Shown here in pieces: positions 5,869 through 38,526 of a DNA stretch of 45,270 bases. The notes under the pieces were generated by a model, which ran no database searches, had not been told where the DNA came from, and was given only the letters and a program-made list of their open reading frames with translations. The stretch is from Candidatus Staskawiczbacteria bacterium (GTDB lineage Bacteria > Patescibacteriota > Minisyncoccia > Minisyncoccales > Staskawiczbacteraceae), in assembly GCA_903845295.1 (NCBI GenBank), contig CAIMWV010000001.1, forward strand, positions 1-45,270, written 5' to 3'. Numbering within the stretch: the first letter of the stretch is position 1; every line of letters begins with the position of its first letter. Made by a program: the position numbers and the translations under genes.

Positions 5869-6105
5869 ATGGCGATATCCGTTTTGAATACGACCGTTCC
5901 CGGGTCTCAACATGAGGCCTGCGAGGGCTGTGGCAGTTCGTCAGTCAGCATCCAGTTAACCGATGAAGCTAACGCGGCTTGGTTCTGCGGAACCTGCGCG
6001 GGAGACTCGGAGAAGGTTGGGGTCGCATTTGCGAAGATGCGAAGGGTGTTGACGGCCCGCACGGAGGGAAGGAAACTCCACCTGGGACTGGCTTGCTCCA
6101 ACTAG
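5869..6105 (+). CDS. Small GC-rich-encoded Cys-rich (zinc-ribbon-like) protein, unknown function
   Basis: MAISVLNTTVPGSQHEACEGCGSS...WFCGTCA, CxxC-N18-CxxC; SD ggaaggga upstream; own promoter and terminator. Confidence 0.7.
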   Translation: MAISVLNTTVPGSQHEACEGCGSSSVSIQLTDEANAAWFCGTCAGDSEKVGVAFAKMRRVLTARTEGRKLHLGLACSN

Positions 6106-6126
6106 GAAGCTAGTATTTTGTTTATG

Positions 6127-6156
6127 GGCAGCGCGCGTTGTGCTGCCTTTTGTTTT
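6127..6156 (+). terminator. Intrinsic terminator of cassette 1
   Basis: ggcagc-gcgcgttgt-gctgcc followed by ttttgtttt. Confidence 0.7.
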
Positions 6157-6170
6157 GCAGATTTATATAT

Positions 6171-6199
6171 TTGACAAAGAAATATTTATAAATTAATAT
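6171..6199 (+). promoter_or_regulatory. sigma70-like promoter of cassette 2
   Basis: TTGACA (6171-6176) - N17 - TAATAT (6194-6199). Confidence 0.75.
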
Positions 6200-6319
6200 T
6201 TAACCATTGTTCTTTAAAATTTTTATATTTGACTCCACATTTTAGGGCGTTTAAGTGTTTTAAAATGTGGAGTTAAGGGTTTTGTTTCAGTTTGAGCCCG
6301 CAGAAATGGAGGAGGATTT

Positions 6320-6646
6320 ATGGCTTTAATTGTTTTAGAGCGTGATCAGAAATCAGATCATGCCTGCCAGGCTCAGGGCTGTCCTTTTGTGCCATGTAAG
6401 GCGAGTACATTCATCTTGGAAGACACATCAGATCGCATGCTCGGCTTTTGTGCCAATTGTGCTGAGCCATGGGGAGAAGGCAACGGTTTCGGGGATAGGG
6501 TTTATCTGACTTTCAATTTGCCGATTCCTGAACGCCCTAAACCCGAGCCTGCTTCCAAACGGCCGATAAGTAAAGAGGAGCGCGAGTTTCTGGTTGCTAA
6601 GGGTAGCAAACCGAGCCGCCGGCTAGACATCGGCATACCGGCTTGA
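6320..6646 (+). CDS. Small GC-rich-encoded Cys-rich protein, similar in layout to 5869-6105
   Basis: MALIVLERDQKSDHACQAQGCPFVPC...GFCANCA; SD ggaggaggattt; leader hairpin actccacatttta.../taaaatgtggagt. Confidence 0.7.
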   Translation: MALIVLERDQKSDHACQAQGCPFVPCKASTFILEDTSDRMLGFCANCAEPWGEGNGFGDRVYLTFNLPIPERPKPEPASKRPISKEEREFLVAKGSKPSRRLDIGIPA

Positions 6647-6668
6647 TACATCCCTTTTTTGCCGTAGA

Positions 6669-6706
6669 CCCCGCAGTCGCACCAAGCGATTGCGGGGCTA
6701 TTTTTT
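6669..6706 (+). terminator. Intrinsic terminator of cassette 2
   Basis: ccccgcagtcgc-accaa-gcgattgcgggg then tattttttac. Confidence 0.85.
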
Positions 6707-6732
6707 ACAATTTTTTATAGAATACATTAATA

Positions 6733-6761
6733 TTGACAAATTTTTATTTATGTTATACAAT
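6733..6761 (+). promoter_or_regulatory. sigma70-like promoter of cassette 3
   Basis: TTGACA (6733-6738) - N17 - TACAAT (6756-6761). Confidence 0.78.
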
Positions 6762-6833
6762 ATCAGTATCAAAACACTGTGTTTTGGTCTGCGATTAACT
6801 TCGCAGTTTGTAAACTAAAACAAGGAGATGGCC

Positions 6834-7190
6834 ATGGTTTACGTTGCGTTGATTCTCGGTTTCAACTTCTTGGTTGGCACTGGTATCGCCACCGCAGTTA
6901 TCATCAGCCGCCTGCGGAGTCGCCGGTCACAGATCGACTGGGACGCGCCATTGGCTGCCAGCCGTCAGCCACAGATCGACTGGGACGCGCCATCGACGGC
7001 CGCTGGGTGGGATCCGGATGATGAGTACCGCCAGCGCAAGGCCGCAGAACGTGAGCGCCAGTTGGCAAAGCGCGAGCCGAAGCTGCGCGCGGTGATTCGC
7101 ATGTTCATCATCCGCGACGATGGCACCAGGATTCCGTTGGCCTACGGCGCCACGGTGCCTCTCGGCGCCACGGTCGAGCTTCGCGGCTAG
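6834..7190 (+). CDS. Small single-TM protein with duplicated IDWDAP motif, GC-rich, unknown function
   Basis: MVYVALILGFNFLVGTGIATAVIISRLRSRRSQIDWDAP...QIDWDAP...; SD aaggag 6 nt before ATG 6834 favours this start over ATG 6828. Confidence 0.65.
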   Translation: MVYVALILGFNFLVGTGIATAVIISRLRSRRSQIDWDAPLAASRQPQIDWDAPSTAAGWDPDDEYRQRKAAERERQLAKREPKLRAVIRMFIIRDDGTRIPLAYGATVPLGATVELRG

Positions 7191-8075: not shown

Positions 8076-8438
8076 TATCCGGGCGGTTGGCGTGCTTACA
8101 AGCACATTTGTGGCATGAGCCTCCCGCGAAGTTGGGCTCATAATATGATGTGGGGTCCGAGAGATTCCGCGCCAACCGCCCTAGCTGTCATTTGACATTC
8201 AAGGTTGGAACGATTGGTAGTTCTTTTGAGGGGGTTCTCTCTAGCCGCGTTTTCTCAGTAGCGGCGAGCGAAAAGAAAACCTGAGGGAATTCCGCTCAAA
8301 AGAGGACTGTCTGTCACGCATATCTCTCCCGGGCTAACAAATGATTGGAGAGAAATACTGCAAAGTTTGCGTGATGGCGGCTTAGTGCCGCGCCAGTCGT
8401 TCCTTCATATTCCCAGTGCTTTAGCGCTGGTTTTTTTT
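8076..8438 (+). ncRNA. Orphan ~355-nt highly structured non-coding RNA, unidentified family
   Basis: 12-bp perfect stem 8081-8092/8170-8181; 11-bp stem 8207-8217/8393-8403 enclosing three helical arms; promoter upstream and terminator at the 3' end; no plausible ORF. Confidence 0.75.
8413..8438 (+). terminator. Intrinsic terminator of the ncRNA
   Basis: ccagtgctttagcgctgg followed by tttttttt. Confidence 0.85.
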
Positions 8439-16864: not shown

Positions 16865-16970
16865 GTTTAACTTGTATTTTTTATAGTTTAGTGTAAATTT
16901 AGAATGGCAGCTTGAGGCGTTCTCTTGCTGTTGTACGTTGAGTCAAACAAGACTGGAGGGAGGAAGAGCC

Positions 16971-18572
16971 ATGAGTGCGAAAATCGCGAGGGCGCTATTG
17001 AGCGTCTCCAATAAGGCCTGCATCGTCGAGTTTGCCCAGGCGCTTGTAGCGATGGGCATAGAGTTGCTTTCCACAGGCGGAACAGCCAGTTCTTTGCGCG
17101 CCGCCGGAGTCAATGTCAGGGATGTCAGTGAACTGACAGGCTTTCCGGAAATCATGGATGGCCGCGTCAAAACGCTGCATCCCAAGGTTCACGGAGGGCT
17201 GTTGAAGAGGCGCGGTAATCTAAAGCACGAAGCCGAGGCAACTACCAATGGAATCGGAGAGATTGATCTGCTCGTGGTCAACCTCTATCCTTTCGAAGAG
17301 ACAGTGGTTAAGCCAGGCTGTACATTCGCCGATGCAATCGAGCAGATTGATATCGGCGGCCCGGCCATGCTGCGTTCTGCCGCAAAGAACTCGGAATTCG
17401 TGACCGTTGTCTGTGATCCGGGCGACTACGCCAGTGTACTGGTGGAATTGCGAGCCAATAGCGGCAACACCCTGCTCGCAACGCGAATGGAGCTCGCGGC
17501 CAAGGTCTTTGCTATGACCAGCCGCTATGACGCGGCCATCTGCAGGTATTTGGAGGTTGAGGGCCAAGCAGGCCCGCCGGCCACCTTCGCCCTGCACGCG
17601 ACCCTGAAACAGGCCCTTCGCTATGGCGAAAATTCGCATCAGAAAGACACTGCGCTGTATGCGTTGCCTTCCGACGAACCATGTGCGGCCAATGGTCGCA
17701 AAGCCTCGGGCAAGGAGATGGGCTACAACAATCTGATGGATATGGATGCCGCGTTCGAAGTTGTCAAGGAATTCCCGCGACCTGCGGCCTGTATCGTCAA
17801 ACACCGCAATCCTTGCGGTGTAGCAGTTGCGGATAGCTTACTTGCGGCCTATCAGGCGGCTTATGCTGGTGATCCGGTTTCGGCCTTCGGTGGAGTACTT
17901 GGATTGAATGGCATATTGGACGAAAGGATCGCTGAGGCGATGCTGGCAGTGAAGGGCTTCAAGCTCGACGCAATTGTCGTACTCGCGATTGTTCCTGGCG
18001 CCCTGGAAATACTGACAACGAAAAAGAAATGGGGCAAGGAAGTCATCGTGGTCGAGACTGGTGGGCCTACCGGTGCAGATGGCATCCTCAGCCTCGGAAA
18101 GCGAGCTATATGGCGCGACGCTCGCACAATTCCGGGCGGCGTGCTGACGCAGTCCTGCGATAGGCTGACGCAAGAGGAGGAGTTCGCCAACCTGAAGACC
18201 GTGACGAAGCGCGAGCCGACTGCAGAGGAAATCGAGGCACTGAAGTTTGCCTGGGTTGTCTGCAAGCACGTCAAGTCTAACGCTATCGTGTTGGGCAGAG
18301 GAAACACGATTGTGGGAGTTGGCGCGGGGCAGATGTCTCGCGTGGACTCGGTTGAAATCTCCATTAAGAAGGCAGGTGATCGGGCCAGGGGCGCGGTGTT
18401 GGCCAGCGATGCCTTCTTCCCATTCCCGGACGGACCTGAAGCTGCGGCAAGGGCTGGTGTGACAGCCATAATCCAGCCCGGCGGCAGTCAGAAGGACAGC
18501 GAAACGATTGCCGTGTGCGACAAATACGGCATCGCCATGGCCTTCACCGGGATCAGGCACTTCAGGCACTAA
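16971..18572 (+). CDS. purH: Bifunctional AICAR transformylase/IMP cyclohydrolase, GC-rich
   Basis: KTLHPKVHGGLLKRR, ALRYGENSHQ, CIVKHRNPCGVAVADSL, GIRHFRH; SD ggagggagg; start refined to ATG 16971. Confidence 0.95.
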   Translation: MSAKIARALLSVSNKACIVEFAQALVAMGIELLSTGGTASSLRAAGVNVRDVSELTGFPEIMDGRVKTLHPKVHGGLLKRRGNLKHEAEATTNGIGEIDLLVVNLYPFEETVVKPGCTFADAIEQIDIGGPAMLRSAAKNSEFVTVVCDPGDYASVLVELRANSGNTLLATRMELAAKVFAMTSRYDAAICRYLEVEGQAGPPATFALHATLKQALRYGENSHQKDTALYALPSDEPCAANGRKASGKEMGYNNLMDMDAAFEVVKEFPRPAACIVKHRNPCGVAVADSLLAAYQAAYAGDPVSAFGGVLGLNGILDERIAEAMLAVKGFKLDAIVVLAIVPGALEILTTKKKWGKEVIVVETGGPTGADGILSLGKRAIWRDARTIPGGVLTQSCDRLTQEEEFANLKTVTKREPTAEEIEALKFAWVVCKHVKSNAIVLGRGNTIVGVGAGQMSRVDSVEISIKKAGDRARGAVLASDAFFPFPDGPEAAARAGVTAIIQPGGSQKDSETIAVCDKYGIAMAFTGIRHFRH

Positions 18573-18758: not shown

Positions 18759-19919
18759 ATGAATAGCGCGAATGGCGTTGTAGAAACTAAGTACACCCAA
18801 GATGGAGTAAACGTGGTTGAAGGAGACACATTCAGCCGCTTTGCCGGTAATCTCTGCCGAACAACTTACGGAAACTCTCGGTACGTTGAGGTGCGGGATT
18901 TTTCCCGCGGCCATTTCCGGGGTCCCCGAGGTTTCCGGCTGAAGGGAATACCCGAAGACTGTTGGCTGGACGCCACTCCTGATGGCGATGGGACCAAGGT
19001 AGTGCTGGTTGACGCCGCCGGCGACTATGACAACGCGGCTTATGGCTGGATTGCGATGGTATGCGGAGACATCACACGCTGGGGCGGAATTCCGCTGGTC
19101 TTGGTTAACAACCTGGATACGGAAACCATCGGCAAACGCGGCCAGCCGGTCAACGATGCGTTCCGTGCCATGATGGTTAGTGTTCAGCGGATCGCAAATG
19201 AGCAACAGCTCATCATGTTCAAAGGTGAAACCGCAGAACTTCCGGGCTGTGTAACTTCGCCAAACACAATGGCTCTCGCAAAGTATCTCTGGTCAGGGGT
19301 CGCCATCGGCGCTTATAACCCCAGAACCATCATCACCGGCGATCAGATTCAAGAAGGCATGGTGGTCATGGCTCTGCGCGAACTGGGCCTGCGCAATAAC
19401 GGCATCAGTTCGGCGCGTAAGGCCATTGTTATGGCATTCGGGTCGCTCTCTTGTCCTGAGGCCAAGGAGGCTGTCAAAAAGGCGGCAACGCATGCCGTTC
19501 TCTACGACAAATTCCTGGCAACCGCCAATGGTTGGTTTGCTGAAGACTTCAATCCGCTTGTCCCGATGTATCTAATCGTGCATGTGACGGGCGGGGCCAT
19601 CAAGTCGAAGTTTGCCGAGGATATTCTCTTCCCGAGAGGACTTTCGGCGCATCTCGACAATCTGTGGGAACCGCCGGAGATTATGCAGCAGTGCGCTAAA
19701 TGGCGCGGCATGAGCGATGAGGAATGCTACGAAACCTGGCATGGCGGACAAGGGGCGCTTGCGGTGATCGACGCCGCTTACGAGCTGAAGTTCGTCAATT
19801 TGGCGAGAATCTTCGGTGTCGAAGCAAGATGCGCCGGCAAGATCACCAAAGAAGACCGGCCTACCATGGTAATTGAATCCAAATTCACCGGGAAGACCAT
19901 TCCATGGTTTGCGAAGTGA
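18759..19919 (+). CDS. purM: PurM-like AIR synthase (divergent), GC-rich
   Basis: DGTKVVLVDAAG...MVCGDITRWGGIPLVLVNNLD...GETAELPGC...GLRNNGISSARK...VHVTGGA; SD ggaggtggg. Confidence 0.75.
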   Translation: MNSANGVVETKYTQDGVNVVEGDTFSRFAGNLCRTTYGNSRYVEVRDFSRGHFRGPRGFRLKGIPEDCWLDATPDGDGTKVVLVDAAGDYDNAAYGWIAMVCGDITRWGGIPLVLVNNLDTETIGKRGQPVNDAFRAMMVSVQRIANEQQLIMFKGETAELPGCVTSPNTMALAKYLWSGVAIGAYNPRTIITGDQIQEGMVVMALRELGLRNNGISSARKAIVMAFGSLSCPEAKEAVKKAATHAVLYDKFLATANGWFAEDFNPLVPMYLIVHVTGGAIKSKFAEDILFPRGLSAHLDNLWEPPEIMQQCAKWRGMSDEECYETWHGGQGALAVIDAAYELKFVNLARIFGVEARCAGKITKEDRPTMVIESKFTGKTIPWFAK

Positions 19920-36593: not shown

Positions 36594-36622
36594 TTGACAC
36601 CAGTTTAATTTTTTTGTAAAGT
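36594..36622 (+). promoter_or_regulatory. Promoter of pyrF-pyrE
   Basis: TTGACA (36594-36599) - N17 - TAAAGT (36617-36622). Confidence 0.6.
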
Positions 36623-36654
36623 CATTATACAAAGGATTTCACATGCGCATTGTG

Positions 36655-36830
36655 CGTTGTGGTCCTTTCGAGGCCCTTTGACATTTGAAAATAGGACGAG
36701 AGCAGATATCTTCGGCGTTGATGGTTGGCTTCCAATGGGGGCCCCAACGCATACTTGGTTGCTTTCTATAAGACCAAGAAGATATTGCTCGACTCCGACA
36801 ACAGAGTGTCGAAGCAAGGTGTCGCCTGTC
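36655..36830 (+). ncRNA. Structured 5' leader RNA of pyrF (candidate riboswitch/attenuator)
   Basis: Three-way junction: 36700-36712/36779-36790 encloses 36715-36720/36745-36750 and 36754-36759/36773-36778. Confidence 0.6.
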
Positions 36831-36887
36831 CTTTGGATGGGTCCCGTGTCCTCAGAATAAGGGGGAATAAGTAAAGGAGGATTCGCC

Positions 36888-37775
36888 ATGGGTTTTCGGG
36901 CGATGTTGGAAAAAAGACAGAAGGAGGCCAAGACCTTGGTTTGTGTGGGGCTTGATCCTCTCGGAGACAAGCTGCCTGACTGCATGAGGGTTGGGGATGA
37001 TGTGGCGCAGAACATAAGGGTTTGGATGACGAAGATCGCTGATGCGACGGCGCCATTCGCCTCGATGTTCAAACCGCAGCGGGCGCACTGGGAGGCAATC
37101 CGCGGAGGGGAGCAAGCTCTCAGGGAATTGGTTACGATCATCCATGAAAAGCATCCGGGGATTCCGGTGTTTGGAGACTGCAAGCGCGGCGACATTGGCC
37201 GCACCCAGCAGCAGTACCGCAAAGCGCATCTGGATCTGGACGGCTTCAACGGCATGAACTTTTCGCCCTACATGGGCCGGGACTGCATGTCTGGGCTCGT
37301 TGACAAGAAGAGCCCTGGCAGGGCTCTGGTAGGGCTGTGCTACACAAGCAATCCGGACGCCAGGGAAGTTCAGGACGTGAAGCTCGCCGACGGCAGATGT
37401 TATTGGGAATTCATTGCCGAGCGCACATTGGCTTGGGCCAAGGAACTCGGTGTTGTCGAAGACGCTGGCATGGTGATGGCGGCAGCTTACGAACTTCCGC
37501 CAAAAGGATCAGGTCAGGTTTATGCCGAACATCTTCGGCGTTGCCGCCAGATAGTCGGTAACAGCCTGTGGTTCCTTATTCCCGGCGTCGGCGCCCAGAA
37601 AGGCGCTGTCGCTGAGACGGTGCGCTATGCCTATGCCGGGCCTGGAAGCATCGCCATTAACTCATCGTCGGAAATTGATTTTGCCAGTTCCGGCGCCGAT
37701 TTCGCCGAGGCGGCTGCGAAGAAGGCCATGGAATTGCGCGATGCGATAAACCTCGCGCTTCCGCAAACCGCCTAA
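36888..37775 (+). CDS. pyrF: Orotidine 5'-phosphate decarboxylase (long, type 2-like), GC-rich
   Basis: CVGLDPLGDKLP, FKPQRAHWE, GDCKRGDIGRT, NFSPYMGRD, IPGVGAQKG; SD aaaggagg. Confidence 0.93.
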   Translation: MGFRAMLEKRQKEAKTLVCVGLDPLGDKLPDCMRVGDDVAQNIRVWMTKIADATAPFASMFKPQRAHWEAIRGGEQALRELVTIIHEKHPGIPVFGDCKRGDIGRTQQQYRKAHLDLDGFNGMNFSPYMGRDCMSGLVDKKSPGRALVGLCYTSNPDAREVQDVKLADGRCYWEFIAERTLAWAKELGVVEDAGMVMAAAYELPPKGSGQVYAEHLRRCRQIVGNSLWFLIPGVGAQKGAVAETVRYAYAGPGSIAINSSSEIDFASSGADFAEAAAKKAMELRDAINLALPQTA

Positions 37776-37878
37776 CGCAACTCTATCCAGGTGTTTTAAT
37801 CCGCCGTTGTATATTCGCGGCGGATTGATTGGGAAGTTTTGAAGTTTGGCACCTAACCCAAAGAAAGGCAGGTAAAAC

Positions 37879-38526
37879 ATGAAAACCTGGAAACAGGTTT
37901 TTCAGGAAGCGGGAGCCGTCTGGATTCACGATGGGCGGCCAACCGCTCCGCATGCAGAGCTTACGTCCGGGCTTCATTCGGACGGATTTGTGAACTGCAC
38001 GTTCGTTACTCGTCAGCCGGGTCTGATTCGGCAAATGGTCTCAAAGAACCAGCCGATCGGCATGGAGACGAACCTTTGGCCGATTCTGGCCCCGCTCATG
38101 AACCAGCTCGACTGGGTGGTCGGTTCGGCGTTCGGGGCAATTACCCTTGCTTCCGCTATTGCCGAGGAAGCTGGCGGCGGGGTGATGGCCGGCTTTACGG
38201 AAAAGGACGGCGACCTGATGAAGTTGGCCCGTTTCGAGATCGGGAAAGGCCGACGGGTGTTGGTGGTCGAAGACGTAATTTCGACCGGAGGTTCCACGCT
38301 CAAAACCATCGCCGGCATTCTCGCCAGCGGTGTACCGGCGGAGAATATTCTCCCGTACATCGTTTGTCTGGTGAACCGTTCTGGTTTCGGGACTCTGGAT
38401 GGTCGGACAATTCGGGCTCTCCTGGAACCCGAAATTCACACGTGGCAACCGGCTGGGTGCCCGCTGTGCCAAGGCGGTTCCAAGGTGCTTCGGCCCAAGA
38501 AACATTGGGCCGAGCTCACTAAGTAA
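37879..38526 (+). CDS. pyrE: Orotate phosphoribosyltransferase, GC-rich
   Basis: HAELTSGLHSDGFVN, VVGSAFGAITLASAIAEEAG, PRPP motif VLVVEDVISTGGST. Confidence 0.92.
   Translation: MKTWKQVFQEAGAVWIHDGRPTAPHAELTSGLHSDGFVNCTFVTRQPGLIRQMVSKNQPIGMETNLWPILAPLMNQLDWVVGSAFGAITLASAIAEEAGGGVMAGFTEKDGDLMKLARFEIGKGRRVLVVEDVISTGGSTLKTIAGILASGVPAENILPYIVCLVNRSGFGTLDGRTIRALLEPEIHTWQPAGCPLCQGGSKVLRPKKHWAELTK

Follow-up and report, generated by a model that had tools for sequence, protein, structure and literature searches.

The window, a 45,270-nucleotide stretch of contig CAIMWV010000001.1 from a Candidatus Staskawiczbacteria bacterium, is part of a Patescibacterial genome and has a GC content of ~35–42% over most of its length. 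Several GC-rich islands (positions 5869–7190, 16938–18572, 18759–19919, and 36888–38526) interrupt this AT-rich sequence and encode small unnamed proteins, purH, a purM-like gene, and pyrF-pyrE. The three small island proteins matched no Pfam or NCBIfam family. The pyrF gene (36888–37775, plus strand; 58% GC) encodes an orotidine-5'-phosphate decarboxylase (TIGR02127, E 3e-45, above the cut-off) and is followed by a gene for a pyrE-like orotate phosphoribosyltransferase (37879–38526, plus strand; TIGR01367, E 4e-21, below the cut-off of that family).

A sigma-70-type promoter (TTGACA-N17-TAAAGT, 36594–36622, plus strand; 10/12 match) lies upstream of pyrF, from which we infer a transcript start near 36629–36631. 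Two congener loci, L009 and L016, have a promoter at the equivalent position. A Shine-Dalgarno sequence, AAAGGAGG (36873–36880, plus strand), precedes the pyrF ATG at 36888. An initial annotation of this DNA had placed a candidate riboswitch or attenuator between the promoter and this ATG; both landmarks are present, every sequence that it quoted occurs exactly where it was placed, and the leader between them is predicted to fold strongly. The sequence of the leader can also be read as a mini-ORF (MRIVRCGPFEAL and a stop codon; 36643–36681, plus strand) with AAAGGA six bases 5' of its ATG, which may be chance. A 67-amino acid ORF spanning the leader (36657–36860) matched no Pfam or NCBIfam family.

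The pyrF leader is predicted to form a long branched hairpin

In the predicted ensemble of 36630–36920, the helices of the three-way junction described in the initial annotation (36700–36790, plus strand; 36700–36712/36779–36790, 36715–36720/36745–36750, and 36754–36759/36773–36778) have pairing probabilities that are mostly near 1. Values were 0.76–1.0 for gagca/tgctc, 0.61–1.0 for atatctt/aagatat, 0.98 for gcgttg/caacgc (dropping to 0.35 at its inner end), and 0.82–0.99 for cttggt/accaag, except for an outermost pair at 0.19. The two elements proposed to flank the junction were replaced by others. A 5' stem, gtcct/aggac, had a pairing probability of 0.00; GTCCTTT (36662–36668) instead pairs with AAAGGAT (36631–36637) to form a 38-nucleotide 5'-terminal hairpin (36631–36668, plus strand; outer stem pairing 0.62–1.0, z -3.9). 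A 3' hairpin near 36790–36811 does not form, and this stretch is part of a basal stem (36670–36696/36794–36823) that the first reading had missed. Because the basal stem encloses the junction, the junction is carried on a 154-nucleotide hairpin (36670–36823, plus strand).

We compared the stability of these intervals with that of shuffled sequences. The interval originally annotated gave a z of -2.9 (2/200 shuffles equally stable) and the whole leader (36630–36887) a z of -3.2 (0/200). The long hairpin reached -4.5 on the plus strand and -2.6 on the minus strand, and 36631–36823 reached -5.2 and -3.3, respectively – values flattered by interval boundaries that were themselves taken from the predicted structure. 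In an unregistered 160-nucleotide sliding scan, the z at the leader was only -1.9, and detection of the signal therefore requires the boundaries of the domain itself. Adjoining the Shine-Dalgarno sequence, 36824–36887 had no excess structure (z 0.15). Within the predicted ensemble, AAAGGAGG is partly paired (mean unpaired 0.48) and the start region (36879–36888) pairs with 36834–36844.

Relatives of the leader were not found

Blastn searches with the leader returned short chance matches only from 382 genomes of the phylum and no homologue from 36 genomes of the family or from the bacterium's own genome, phages, and plasmids. A covariance model of the domain, limited in reach because it was built from one sequence, found only itself among the 36 family genomes and had no match in 44 fetched loci. 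Of these loci, 8 had been fetched for a motif and 36 came from pyrF searches (some of them weak or partial matches); no homologue was found upstream of pyrF at any of the 36. With no homologue found, no covariation is available for the leader. A search for pyrF in viral contigs found none. At congener loci L009 and L016, pyrF-like genes follow the same upstream gene but have short leaders that lack the long-hairpin domain. Two pyrF relatives, L002 and L003, likewise have short leaders that consist of a hairpin, a CUUUGA motif, and a Shine-Dalgarno sequence.

These results raise the prospect of an incidental structure, in which foreign DNA of high GC content would simply happen to fold and would serve as nothing more than a leader. 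The lack of conservation in any search, the ability of congeners to manage with short leaders at the same site, and the modest z of the unregistered scan are consistent with this explanation, to which we give a minority weight. Against it stand the stability of the whole leader, which no shuffle equalled, and a fold that is stronger on the transcribed strand. A further argument against it is that, in this genome, GC-rich genes with long leaders mostly share the tendency, as described below.

Long leaders of GC-rich genes tend to have stable predicted folds

We surveyed leaders in further stretches of the genome, where a simple script was used to call the genes and their promoters. Among leaders of at least 100 nucleotides – leaving out one that holds a tRNA and an attenuator before leuA – the median z was -5.2 for GC-rich genes (n=9) and -0.5 for low-GC genes (n=31; p=0.00075). 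The GC-rich genes with long leaders include purD, unnamed proteins, and pyrF, and structure therefore follows no single pathway. The stable leaders are mutually dissimilar. Short leaders of GC-rich genes were not unusually stable (median z -0.5), and GC-rich and low-GC genes could not be told apart by the stability of their first 60 nucleotides (p=0.10). The purD leader (L085:4007–4234, plus strand; z -5.4) is predicted to form one long rod, the base of which pairs a boxA-like sequence, GCTCTTTGA.

Other candidate RNA elements were observed in this genome. The leuA leader (L078:19443–19544, minus strand; ahead of leuA at L078:17621–19285) is attenuator-like: it contains a 33-residue ORF with 9 leucines (MQNIGDKKLNLQLNLLLSLLLVSQEVFDKDKRI), then a hairpin, and two stems that exclude each other, an antiterminator (-18.6) and a terminator (-20.3), ahead of a T run. 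At the gathering score, it matched no Rfam family. A SAM riboswitch (Rfam RF00162, above the gathering score) is present at L107:13729–13847 (plus strand). Within the window, a GC-rich stretch between a tpiA-like gene and the next gene (8078–8430, plus strand; z -6.3) ends in a terminator-like hairpin and is possibly a non-coding RNA; no relative was found in the family, and it matched no Rfam family.

A candidate boxA-like element lies in the basal stem

We identified a boxA-like sequence, GCCCTTTGACA (36673–36683, plus strand), on the 5' side of the pyrF leader's basal stem. It matches 10 of the 11 positions of GYTCTTTRANA (p=0.046 for the whole leader, p=0.017 for the first 70 nucleotides). 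The motif was first noticed in pyrF leaders and then scored with a preset consensus, TGYTCTTTRAMAAYT, from known boxA sequences. In predicted nascent chains, it is largely free until transcription reaches ~36800 and fully paired from 36820. The boxA-like motifs of the purD leader and of the leader at window position 5869 likewise pair at the base of these long leaders, and at window position 6320 the motif pairs with the Shine-Dalgarno region. Since UCUUU is complementary to Shine-Dalgarno sequences, an anti-Shine-Dalgarno role is possible.

Scoring the first 70 nucleotides of leaders, we found boxA-like motifs enriched in two of four GC-rich subgroups. Long leaders of GC-rich genes in the first of two sets (10 leaders) gave p=0.003; this set includes window leaders in which the motif had already been seen. 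Short leaders of GC-rich genes in the second set (13 leaders) gave p=0.0016, a value that is truly weaker because three pairs are duplicates on an inverted-repeat contig. These pairs are identical leaders in opposite orientation at ~10.7–16.9 kb of L111 (G000:C26), a large inverted repeat that is perhaps an assembly artefact. Neither the other two GC-rich subgroups (p=0.14 and 0.13) nor any low-GC subgroup reached significance. Across the family, GYTCTTTGACA occupied a leader position at 8 of the 31 examined sites, versus 1.3% of random positions. A genome-wide count of GKYCTTTGAHA revealed no enrichment (9, versus 16 for the reversed pattern), and a 16S search, aimed at boxA in the rRNA leader, gave no match.

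Some mRNA leaders that carry a boxA (consensus GYTCTTTAANA), such as that of Escherichia coli suhB, are bound by the Nus complex (PMC5725501). The pyrF leader resembles that of suhB in having a candidate boxA-like motif in a 5' untranslated region, and nusB is present in the genome. It differs in that the motif has one mismatch, lies ~205 bases ahead of the start codon, and is placed within a long stem. In further contrast to suhB-type leaders, whose regulation includes a Rho-dependent step, no match to rho was found in the genome (G000, rated 95% complete), and Nus binding at the pyrF leader is putative. An ambitious extension of these observations would be that leaders of GC-rich acquired genes across the family are built around a boxA-like element in or beside a 5' hairpin, that Nus factors regulate these mRNAs without Rho, and that the long hairpin of pyrF buries the element once complete. 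We regard this as unlikely.

Attenuator, riboswitch, and small RNA explanations

Pyrimidine attenuators and PyrR-binding leaders are long leaders that precede pyrimidine genes. The pyrF leader is similarly long and similarly placed, but it lacks an Rfam match to such families and an intrinsic terminator. At the Rfam gathering score (Rfam 15) the leader had no match of any kind; with E values up to 5, the sole match was a chance fragment of Flavo-1 on the minus strand. No intrinsic terminator was listed on the plus strand across 36594–36888.

The mini-ORF suggests a translation-coupled attenuator, in which a ribosome on 36643–36681 would open the 5' hairpin and the basal stem. Consistent with such a device, AAAGGA lies six bases ahead of the ATG, the mini-ORF stop codon falls in the basal stem, and the same genome has an attenuator-like leader with a Leu-rich peptide before leuA. 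We nevertheless find this explanation improbable, as the leader has no intrinsic terminator, Rho was not found, the peptide has no telling codon run, and a single Shine-Dalgarno–ATG pair in a 250-nucleotide leader can arise by chance.

The initial annotation favored a riboswitch or attenuator that senses nucleotides or PRPP. As an orphan riboswitch, the junction would bind a pyrimidine, orotate, or PRPP and alter pyrF-pyrE expression through the start region. The position of the three-way junction before a pyrimidine operon and the predicted pairing of the start region with upstream sequence speak for this proposal; however, it is unsupported, because the leader matches no Rfam family and lacks an intrinsic terminator, the other pyrF loci searched yielded no homologue, and the two congeners have no such domain at this site. 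It is further weakened by leaders of similar stability that this genome carries on functionally unrelated genes and by the lack of excess structure around the start region, and we consider it very improbable. Least probable of all is a separate small RNA gene before pyrF: the fold is self-contained and a second structured non-coding stretch exists in the window (8078–8430), but on the plus strand no terminator separates the structure from pyrF, and no second promoter is listed between the structure and the Shine-Dalgarno sequence.

A proposed lineage-specific structured leader

The best reading of these data is that the pyrF leader is a lineage-specific structured leader. Specifically, we propose that 36631–36823 is the structured 5' untranslated leader of a pyrF-pyrE mRNA and one of several stable, dissimilar leaders on GC-rich, probably acquired genes, acting through its structure – a reading to which we assign a probability of roughly 0.5. 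Its most likely function would be in mRNA stability or translation, possibly with the involvement of Nus factors, and would need no ligand. The 5' hairpin and the long three-way-junction hairpin may protect the 5' end of the mRNA, and the structure may set the level of translation. It may also control access by NusB/NusE to the boxA-like element, which would be open early in transcription and enclosed by the basal stem after the leader has been completed.

Bacterial mRNAs of the ompA type carry stabilizing 5' hairpins. The pyrF leader is comparable in having a hairpin at its predicted 5' end and a Shine-Dalgarno sequence further downstream, though it is much longer and branched, and its stabilizing effect is putative. 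Judging by titles and abstracts, none of the papers retrieved for Patescibacteria on regulation, boxA motifs, or mRNA leaders describes such leaders there, and a term search of one listed paper found riboswitches only as a proposed tool (PMC11665869).

For the pyrF leader itself, the evidence argues against a ligand hunt as a starting point. To our knowledge, little is known about gene regulation in Patescibacteria. Structured leaders that are common to GC-rich, probably acquired genes, and not to one pathway, would bear on how foreign DNA is expressed in these bacteria.
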